Assembly (NCBI GenBank): GCA_013375355.1
Contig: JABXJV010000044.1
Location: 1 to 8,197 of the forward strand
Reading direction: 5' to 3'
Length of the DNA: 8,197 bases
DNA from: Candidatus Helarchaeota archaeon
Lineage (GTDB): Archaea > Asgardarchaeota > Lokiarchaeia > Helarchaeales > JABXJV01
Shown one piece after another: positions 2,506 through 5,624 of this stretch. A model generated the notes under the pieces. It saw only the letters and a list, made by a program, of their open reading frames with translations. It was not told the DNA's origin and ran no database searches. How positions within the stretch are numbered: position 1 is the stretch's first letter; each line of letters begins with the position of its first letter. The position numbers and the translations under genes are program-made.

Positions 2506-2721
2506 ATGTTTGAGGAATTTGAGAAAAAAAAGTATCAAACTCAACGCCCTCCACCTACTGATATATCTGATTTTGTTTTAGTAGAAAAAAGAAAAATGGA
2601 AGATTTTAAATGTGGAGAGTGTGATGGGAAAATGTATATGTCAATATACTATTGTTCTTCCCCGAGTAGATACATTAAACAAATTAAGTGTTCCAAATGT
2701 AATTTAGAAACTTGGAGATAA
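2506..2721 (+). CDS. Small zinc-ribbon protein, function unknown
   Basis: The 71-aa product has a basic, proline-rich N-terminal third (QRPPPTD at 13-19) followed by a likely zinc ribbon. C36/C39 (KCGEC) pair with C62/C65 (KCSKC), 22 residues apart, with an extra C50 between. Two CxxC knuckles separated by about 20 residues are typical of small archaeal zinc ribbons that bind nucleic acid or proteins. The ATG at 2506 has only a weak purine stretch upstream, so the start is less secure than for its neighbours. It stands alone, 124 bases after the radical SAM gene and 233 bases before the E2F-like gene, in AT-rich flanks. The paired cysteines and the W near the end argue for a real gene. No specific function can be given. 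Confidence 0.6.
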   Translation: MFEEFEKKKYQTQRPPPTDISDFVLVEKRKMEDFKCGECDGKMYMSIYYCSSPSRYIKQIKCSKCNLETWR

Positions 2722-2954: not shown

Positions 2955-3461
2955 ATGAAATTAGTTGAATTAGCGAAGAAAGCAATAAATTTACTTCAAG
3001 ATGCCGGTGATAAAGGTTTCAACAATATTGACCTAGCTCAAAAACTTCACATGCCTAGAAGAAGAGTATATGATATTATTGCTATTCTAAGGGCTGCTGG
3101 GTTAGTCGAAGCAAAGAGGGAAAAAGGTGGTACAAGAATAAAGTGGAGAGGTATACCCGTTGTGAGTGAAGTAAAGCCAGACTCAAGTGTAAGCCATGAT
3201 CTGACGGAAAAATTAGATAAAATTACGGAAGAAAAGAACGAATTAGAGTCTCAAATAGACGAATTGAAAGATAAAATACTGAAATTAAAAGAAGAACAAG
3301 AAACATCCACCATGGAGGTCAGTACAATCAAGACAAAATTTGAAGTTCAAAAAATCAGCATAAAAACCTTGAAATCCGCAAAAATTACTAAAGTTCAGAC
3401 ATCACCTATCGAAATTATTCTGGAAGCAGATAAAAAAGGTTTTGTTATAGAACCTGGATAA
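2955..3461 (+). CDS. E2F/DP-like winged-helix transcription factor with coiled coil
   Basis: This 168-aa protein looks like a compact E2F/DP factor. Residues 1-70 form a winged helix: LLQDAGDKGFNNIDLAQKL (helices 1-2), then the recognition helix with RRRVYD at 35-40, which contains the RRxYD signature used by eukaryotic E2F and DP to read the CGC core. It continues as IIAILRAAGLVEAK and ends with a wing strand and IKWRGIP (62-68). Human DP1 has RRRVYD and IKWIGLP at the same places; E2F1 has RRIYD and IQWLG. Residues about 82-116 are a heptad-rich coiled coil (LTEKLDKITEEKNEL onward), where E2F/DP have their dimerisation coil. The last 50 residues are beta-rich (SPIEIILEADKKG). The start is ATG, with GAGGT at 2944-2948 six bases upstream. 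A DNA-binding dimer is inferred. An exact E2F consensus lies in the divergent promoter at 4175-4182. Ordinary archaeal winged-helix factors lack this motif set. Confidence 0.83.
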   Translation: MKLVELAKKAINLLQDAGDKGFNNIDLAQKLHMPRRRVYDIIAILRAAGLVEAKREKGGTRIKWRGIPVVSEVKPDSSVSHDLTEKLDKITEEKNELESQIDELKDKILKLKEEQETSTMEVSTIKTKFEVQKISIKTLKSAKITKVQTSPIEIILEADKKGFVIEPG

Positions 3462-3493: not shown

Positions 3494-3889
3494 CTATTCA
3501 CGGTCAATAATAATTGTAGTTCCCGCTTTAACCTTTGATTTTAAAAGGTCTAAATTCTCTGTAATTCTACCTATTACATTTACTTCTGAATATGGTTCAA
3601 TTTTTTCTAAAAAAATGCAAATACCATCACCTAAGGGCCAATAAGCAATATCACCTTCCTCAACATCCAAGGTTGGTTTCTCCCGTCCTTTTTTAACACC
3701 AATACCTTGAATATATATTTCTTTTTCTTTATAGATGCTCGCTCTATCTTGAATGGGTAAATTATCCCAAATGGCCTCAATTGTTAATGGATTTTTAATC
3801 CTTTGAAAATTTCCCTTGACCGTTTTAGATTCTCCAGGAATCTTAATTACAATTTTATAAATACTACTCAAATTAACAAACTTCCTCAA
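3494..3889 (-). CDS. Cyclophilin-like domain protein (PF04126-type)
   Basis: The 131-aa product carries the hallmark of the small prokaryotic cyclophilin-like family (Cyclophil_like, TM1367-type). This is the block EEGDIAYWPLGDGICIF at 77-93, followed by VNVIGRI at 103-109 and an AIWDNLP segment at 39-45. Members share a cyclophilin beta-barrel fold but generally lack the prolyl-isomerase active site; their biochemical role is not established. The start is TTG at 3889, two bases after the stop of the upstream coiled-coil gene, so the pair is one operon with probable translational coupling. A second in-frame TTG at 3871, preceded by a GAGGA stretch, is an alternative start that removes six residues. 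The convergent E2F-like gene ends 32 bases away. The family call is firm; the function is unknown. Confidence 0.78.
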   Translation of the reverse strand: MRKFVNLSSIYKIVIKIPGESKTVKGNFQRIKNPLTIEAIWDNLPIQDRASIYKEKEIYIQGIGVKKGREKPTLDVEEGDIAYWPLGDGICIFLEKIEPYSEVNVIGRITENLDLLKSKVKAGTTIIIDRE

Positions 3890-4164: not shown

Positions 4165-4187
4165 ATATTTAAAGTTTCGCGCACGAA
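4165..4187. promoter_or_regulatory. Divergent promoter with an E2F-consensus palindrome beside a TATA-like box
   Basis: Bases 4175-4182 read TTTCGCGC, an exact match to the eukaryotic E2F site TTTSSCGC, and the only one I found by eye in the window. It sits in a short inverted repeat, TTCG-CGCA-CGAA (4176-4187), standing out as GC-rich in AT-rich intergenic DNA. Immediately to the left, TATTTAAAG (4166-4174) is TATA-like in both directions. Reading minus, CGAAAC before TTTAAATA resembles a BRE plus TATA for the coiled-coil/cyclophilin-like operon. Reading plus, the same box could serve the gene starting at 4238. A protein bound here would overlap BRE/TATA, the usual position for archaeal repression. 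Regulation by the E2F/DP-like product is inferred, not shown. Confidence 0.5.
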
Positions 4188-4237: not shown

Positions 4238-4600
4238 TTGGTAAAAGAGGACGATAAAGTCCTAATTCAGTTTATTTATAAGGATAACACCAAGAAATCT
4301 CTATTAATTCCACCTGATCGCGCAAAAGAACTGGAAATTTTAGCAATTACTGGAGTACCGAGAAGAATTACAAAGGCTATTATACGAATCGGGAAAAAAC
4401 TTTTAGATCGTAAAGGTGAAGTAAATAATAATGATGTCCTTTCACCTTCGAGGAGTGGAGACCTTTACAATGCCTTGAATTTCTTAATTAAAGAAAAGAT
4501 AATTGAAAAAAATAAAGAAAGAAAAAAAATAAAGGTTATTAATTTTGATAAACTCAATTCCTTACTTTCAGAATTAAAAGATTTAGTTCGAGAAAAATAA
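4238..4600 (+). CDS. Hypothetical protein with possible C-terminal winged helix
   Basis: The 120-aa product starts at TTG with GGAG at 4226-4229, eight bases upstream, a good archaeal ribosome site. Residues 1-35 look like beta strands (KVLIQFIYKD, KKSLLIP). Residues about 40-100 are helical: ITKAIIRIGKKLLDRKGEV, then SGDLYNALNFLIKEKIIEKN and a basic wing-like KERKKIKVINF. The order helix, helix, recognition-like helix, wing suggests a winged helix-turn-helix, but no family signature is visible. A further helix ends the protein. It is transcribed divergently from the coiled-coil/cyclophilin-like operon across the E2F-consensus palindrome and may share its regulation. The function is not recognised, and the DNA-binding idea is tentative. 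Confidence 0.55.
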   Translation: MVKEDDKVLIQFIYKDNTKKSLLIPPDRAKELEILAITGVPRRITKAIIRIGKKLLDRKGEVNNNDVLSPSRSGDLYNALNFLIKEKIIEKNKERKKIKVINFDKLNSLLSELKDLVREK

Positions 4601-5348: not shown

Positions 5349-5624
5349 TTGCCAGAAGATTTAAATAAAGAAAAAGAAGGTTTAACTAAAGCTAAAGAGA
5401 GTTTTATAAAAAAAATATTAGAAAATAAGACTGAAGCTCTATTAGCAAAAAAATATTGCTCCGAAATTGAAGAGTTAATTAAAGCAAAGAAAATTATCTC
5501 GATTGATGAGGTTTCAAAAAAATTAAATCTAAATAACACTGATGTAAGGACGATTTTTGAAGAATTAATATTATATAATGTTATTACTGGGAAAATAGAA
5601 AAAGATCAATTGATTTTGGATTAA
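5349..5624 (+). CDS. Small helical protein with winged-helix-like C-terminus
   Basis: The 91-aa product has two charged helices (about 3-45, with a single C37) followed by a winged-helix-like segment: IISIDEVSKKLNLNNTDV (helix-turn-helix), RTIFEELILYNVITG (third helix), and a short beta hairpin KIEKDQLILD. The last part resembles the winged-helix end of PCI-type domains and of many archaeal regulators, but the match is by shape only. The start is TTG at 5349, with GTGAT at 5341-5345 pairing with the inner part of the anti-Shine-Dalgarno. It lies 17 bases upstream of the GltD-like oxidoreductase and is surely co-transcribed, so it may regulate or accompany that enzyme. No specific function is recognised. 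Confidence 0.6.
   Translation: MPEDLNKEKEGLTKAKESFIKKILENKTEALLAKKYCSEIEELIKAKKIISIDEVSKKLNLNNTDVRTIFEELILYNVITGKIEKDQLILD

Follow-up and report, generated by a model that had tools for sequence, protein, structure and literature searches.

An E2F-family gene in a Helarchaeota genome

The stretch of DNA analysed here (the window; 8,197 nucleotides, contig JABXJV010000044.1 of assembly GCA_013375355.1, from a Candidatus Helarchaeota archaeon) carries at positions 2955-3461 of the forward strand an open reading frame (ORF) that starts with ATG and encodes a protein of 168 residues. An earlier annotation, made from the letters alone (the original prediction), had described the product as an archaeal E2F/DP-like factor in an apparently Asgard genome, and the latter point is borne out by the closest genome relative, Candidatus Helarchaeota LW55_61, with 92% identity. 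In all, 35 homologues were found at E <= 0.001, several of them carrying the names Helarchaeota or Promethearchaeota.

Residues 1-68 (2955-3158, forward strand) form a winged-helix DNA-binding domain, as delimited by the Pfam match and by the secondary structure of the AlphaFold2 model (helices 3-17, 24-31 and 35-47, strands 51-56 and 59-64). The translation places the recognition motif RRRVYD at residues 35-40 (3057-3074, forward strand) and IKWRGIP at residues 62-68, both inside this domain, just as had been proposed. R35-R37, Y39 and D40 are unchanged across 32 close relatives, and a set of 28 diverse Asgard sequences keeps R36, R37, D40 and W64 throughout and Y39 in at least 90%. The domain is followed by a predicted dimerisation helix (a coiled coil; residues 81-118; 3195-3308, forward strand) that encloses the coil formerly placed at residues 82-116, so that the E2F-like order of winged helix and then helix stands; the coil does not, however, follow immediately, as had been claimed, since residues 69-77, modelled with a predicted local distance difference test (pLDDT) score below 50, look like a flexible linker between the two. 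Overlooked in the original prediction was a conserved C-terminal beta domain (residues 134-167; 3354-3455, forward strand) with four predicted strands (134-138, 144-149, 154-158 and 163-167). The chain stops at residue 168, straight after the last of these strands, and therefore lacks the C-terminal activation and Rb-binding region of eukaryotic E2F.

The family assignment is carried by the winged helix. PF02319 (E2F_TDP) matches residues 3-66 with an E-value of 5e-10 (39.4 bits, curated cut-off 25.7), and RRRVYD contains the RRxYD of the E2F/DP recognition helix. The next winged-helix model in Pfam, TrmB (PF01978), reached 6e-4 (20.1 bits, cut-off 25.6), and generic winged helices filled the matches of a structure search with the whole model, in which the winged helix alone matched and no E2F or DP chain was found among the best 50 listed. 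These two results are what could be said for a TrmB-like or similar ordinary archaeal winged helix that came to resemble E2F by convergence, a fold that the window protein shares in its generic form; yet the PF02319 E-value is a million-fold better and above its cut-off, whereas that of TrmB lies below its own, and E2F and DP chains came first when all PDB sequences were searched with a profile built from 28 diverse Asgard sequences, which makes convergence hardly credible. The top three of the 18 PDB matches were E2F8 (3.7e-12, 50 bits), E2F4 (1.2e-7, 35.3 bits) and DP2 (0.017, 18.6 bits). By sequence, then, the protein belongs to the E2F/DP winged-helix family, as an Asgard representative closer to E2F than to DP. 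With eukaryotic E2F (E2F4, 1cf7_A; E2F8, 4yo2_A) it shares the RRxYD winged helix, and with DP (DP2, 1cf7_B; DP1, 2aze_A) both RRRVYD and IKW.G.P; it differs from DP, which carries an insertion ahead of RRRVYD in the alignment and scores lower with the Asgard profile. In a single BLASTP comparison, residues 8-168 aligned with residues 137-309 of chimpanzee E2F1 (P0126; 23% identity, E 2e-5). A search of NCBIfam with the 168-residue protein gave no match above cut-off, and no viral relative was confirmed with the Asgard alignment and E2F1 as queries.

The assignment is correct and already in print: 'The Archaeal Cell Cycle' (PMC7617429) reports E2F homologues in Asgard genomes and proposes a link to cell-cycle transcription, and the excerpts of that paper give no C-terminal domain, DNA site or target genes. 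Among openly licensed papers, as represented by their titles and abstracts, we found none on the C-terminal domain of an archaeal E2F or on archaeal E2F sites.

Distribution, dimerisation and the C-terminal domain

Of the phylum's 227 genomes, 75 have a PF02319 match above cut-off; 14 control genomes have none. All but three of the 75 have one copy, the others two, and the 78 places gave 77 proteins, the weakest match (L080 of G109) yielding none. The single E2F/DP that had been predicted thus holds with respect to copy number (72/75), while the profile scores lean to E2F over DP. The DP dimerisation domain (PF08781) was above cut-off in none of the 227 genomes. With mostly a single copy in each genome and DP domains undetected, the simplest reading is a homodimer, which we infer to form through the helix and the beta domain. 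The C-terminal tail could be aligned in 69 of the 77 proteins, of which 49 have at least 28 residues free of proline and glycine ahead of the tail and 12 are short (at most 133 residues). The remaining eight (L015, L025, L026, L047, L053, L054, L058 and L067) are variants that combine the winged helix with a different C-terminal part.

Several attempts were made to relate the tail to the eukaryotic marked box by sequence. The E2F coiled-coil/marked-box model (PF16421) was above cut-off in none of the 227 genomes; at E-values up to 1 it matched eight of 44 C-terminal halves, with 0.034 as the best value. With hhalign, the full-length comparison reached 4.8e-11, owing to the winged helix and the coil; coil plus tail gave 0.031 with an alignment confined to the coil, and the tail alone 0.52-0.7, which is not significant. 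A hidden Markov model (HMM) of the archaeal tail gave no score for four of 12 marked boxes, and the scores of the other eight were equalled or exceeded by 23-63% of 4302 decoy windows; an HMM of the marked-box strands, which scored 71 of 76 archaeal proteins, had a median that was reached by 5.8% of the decoys and was set aside as too weak. A C-terminal profile run against the PDB matched coiled coils only among the best 60 matches listed.

When residues 78-168 were modelled alone, the first three among the best 71 PDB chains found by Foldseek were E2F5, E2F1 and E2F4, all of them coiled-coil/marked-box chains (2aze_B, 5tuu_B and 5tuv_B represent this part of eukaryotic E2F) covering helix and sheet. 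The predicted fold therefore suggests that the tail is marked-box-like and that the protein has the same order of winged helix, coil and beta domain as eukaryotic E2F, with a beta domain that is shorter and unrecognisable by sequence. Alternatively, the four strands may be an unrelated small domain, such as the part of a one-component regulator that binds a ligand or a partner. The three leading Foldseek matches speak against this, as does the BLASTP alignment with E2F1, which runs as far as the C-terminus without a shift in register, and we regard an unrelated domain as unlikely, if by no means far-fetched.

A tree of eukaryotic E2F, DP and archaeal homologues, as the original prediction had envisaged, was made with LG+G4 from 37 Asgard and seven animal winged helices. 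E2F and DP formed one group apart from all 37 Asgard sequences (ultrafast bootstrap (UFBoot) 93), as expected if their split followed the divergence of the Asgard lineages; the topology fits such a late split, although sampling is thin, with only seven sequences from animals, and the domain has just some 60 residues. The neighbours of the eukaryotic group were the Asgard variants with the other C-terminal part, at a UFBoot of only 61. The same topology bears on a recent transfer of the gene from a eukaryote, for which the similarity to eukaryotic E2F and nothing further could be adduced: the Asgard sequences lie outside the E2F and DP clade, and the family, present in 75 of 227 genomes, is deeply divergent and comes in several architectures, which makes such a transfer very improbable.

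GCGC palindromes at DNA-synthesis genes

In dividing human cells, E2F turns on the genes for DNA synthesis, and PCNA and MCM are classical targets. The E2F consensus is given as TTTSGCGCS in excerpts of PMC3356364 and as GCGSSAAA in those of PMC4862756. We counted the palindrome TTTSGCGCSAAA in the 227 genomes, with the reversed pattern as control, and found a match in 106 of them. One block of 48 genomes (G180-G227) is here called Thor-type; in it the best matches of the E2F proteins are mostly named Thorarchaeota (some at 93-100%). The 41 E2F-containing genomes of this block have 63 sites against five for the control, whereas the 145 genomes outside the block that lack E2F have 81 against 49 (Fisher, p 1.8e-6; 7.2e-5 when 13 sites in rpoB are removed). 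The seven genomes inside the block that lack E2F have six sites (control three).

Site positions were taken from 32 of the 36 block genomes with a match, of which L173 and L232 (from G182, which lacks E2F) were then left out. Out of 60 sites at the Thor-type loci with E2F, 25 lie within ORFs of at least 120 residues (13 of these in rpoB) and 35 outside. A large part of the latter (22/35) precedes, at a distance of 141-206 bp, one orthologous gene for an uncharacterised protein of about 250 residues without a Pfam match (L171-L229, e.g. L175:1695-2450, forward strand). In 14 aligned loci of this gene, selected for the palindromic 12-mer, the surrounding upstream DNA is barely alignable apart from two features 3' of the 12-mer, the element ATACCC..GTATG and a stretch resembling a TATA box. 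At 30 control loci (L141-L170; nine from E2F-containing genomes outside the block, mixed with 21 from genomes without E2F), 25 sites lie within ORFs and the largest common group comprises two.

Two perfect palindromes were also found upstream of thymidylate synthase (thyA; PF00303, 2.5e-23). This gene was examined first, and its choice is post hoc because it was noticed through its sites; MCM and PCNA were named beforehand as targets, alanyl-tRNA synthetase (AlaRS) served as control gene and 729 genes of an 800-kb stretch of G185 as null sample. Second copies of thyA (L267, L287-L289), the split MCM gene L319 (leaving 24 of 25 Thor-type genomes), the MCM loci L317 and L318 (leaving three of five others), and partial or second-domain matches of AlaRS (leaving 22 of 30 loci) were excluded; for PCNA, 30 loci of 33 matches were used. 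In the Thor-type genomes, the 12-mer was present with at least 10 of 12 positions at 12 of 21 thyA, 9 of 24 MCM, 1 of 30 PCNA and none of 22 AlaRS genes (null sample 22/729), and with at least 11 at seven, two, none and none of the same genes (null sample four). A control motif with a CGCG core reached at least 10 at 6/21 thyA and 3/24 MCM genes (null sample 22/729), and at least 11 at none of either (null sample two). The strict core TSGCGCS occurred within 200 bp of 17/21 thyA, 10/24 MCM and 2/22 AlaRS genes (null sample 23/729). For thyA in genomes without E2F, only two of 18 loci reached at least 10 and none at least 11. Since the Thor-type genomes share ancestry, these counts are not independent events.

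Taken together, the data point, with a probability that we put at about 60%, to an Asgard E2F composed of a winged helix, a dimerisation helix and a marked-box-like domain, which would homodimerise via helix and beta domain, bind palindromic TTTSGCGCSAAA operators in the Thor-type genomes, for the most part 70-200 bp ahead of the genes for thymidylate synthase, MCM and the 250-residue protein, and thereby coordinate DNA-synthesis genes. Direct binding of the protein to these sites, and its relevance to the cell cycle, we infer from the DNA patterns. Three points are new: the most certain is the presence of E2F-type sites upstream of thyA and MCM in Thor-type genomes with E2F, next comes the occurrence of mostly one copy with no DP, and the least certain is the marked-box-like domain. 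These relatives would share a further feature with eukaryotic E2F, a palindrome of the E2F type in the promoters of thyA and MCM.

Several observations weigh against this reading. The link to DNA-synthesis genes is seen in genomes of the Thorarchaeota type and not in the lineage of the window. The 34 genomes outside the block that do have E2F contain 14 TTTSGCGCSAAA sites and 14 of the control, and in the closest genome to the window (G001) together with other E2F-containing genomes outside the block none of six thyA and none of three MCM genes had the 12-mer with at least 10 positions. In G001 itself there are no TTTSGCGCSAAA palindromes, E2F-type words are not enriched in the intergenic DNA of the first 800 kb of its contig C3, and none of the 12 intergenic GCGC places in that stretch lies ahead of a recognised replication gene; one of them lies 201 bp upstream of a purL-like gene. 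No common palindrome was seen by eye in the 77 regions upstream of the E2F genes themselves. The E2F-family protein may thus be real and the Thor-type palindromes be bound by another regulator, with E2F controlling other genes, a possibility to which the equal counts in other lineages, the lack of a shared site in the E2F gene's own promoter and the second element (ATACCC..GTATG) alongside the palindrome at the 250-residue protein's gene all lend weight. The palindrome corresponds, however, to the E2F consensus of PMC3356364 and is located at the thyA and MCM promoters, and thymidylate synthase is under the control of E2F1 according to the abstract of PMC4887526, so that another regulator seems rather unlikely to us.

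If E2F does bind the palindromes, its link to DNA-synthesis genes predates the eukaryotes. A more far-reaching scenario, which we offer tentatively and hold at less than even odds, is that factor, site and targets of the G1/S switch were all in place before eukaryotes: a homodimeric E2F with coil and proto-marked-box, acting in Asgard archaea on operators of the TTTGGCGCCAAA type in the promoters of thymidylate synthase and MCM, from which E2F and DP arose by later duplication. With a named protein, a 12-bp site and defined promoters, the origin of the E2F switch becomes experimentally testable.

The window's lineage and neighbouring genes

Because its recognition motif is identical, the Helarchaeota protein should recognise a similar GCGC core; its lineage is AT-rich. 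In the first 800 kb of contig C3 of G001 (L081-L120), GGCC and SGCGCS are much rarer in coding DNA than expected (ratios of 0.31 and 0.08), which perhaps reflects avoidance of a restriction site. Two places may serve as leads only: a lone GCGC within AATCGCGCTTAA in very AT-rich DNA, which precedes the start of the G001 MCM gene (L290) by 123 bp, and, in the window, a half-site TTTCGCGC (4175-4182, forward strand) 56 bp ahead of an ORF of unknown function (4238-4600), which is conserved in LW55_61 (L001) but also arose by chance in 64 of 200 shuffled versions of the window.

Next to the E2F gene lies a cyclophilin-like gene (3494-3889, reverse strand; PF04126, 2.1e-20), a neighbour that recurs near E2F in 53 of 78 loci and is adjacent and convergent in 48; the pairing is unusual, since convergent genes cannot share a transcript. 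Rfam, tRNA and tmRNA searches of the window gave no match. Upstream of the E2F gene, 2506-2721 (forward strand) encodes a small cysteine-rich, zinc-ribbon-like protein, with relatives in the same position in seven loci including the window, and at 5349-5624 (forward strand) there is a protein of 91 residues that weakly matches the UFMylation factor DDRGK, below the cut-off (23.6 bits against 27.8).
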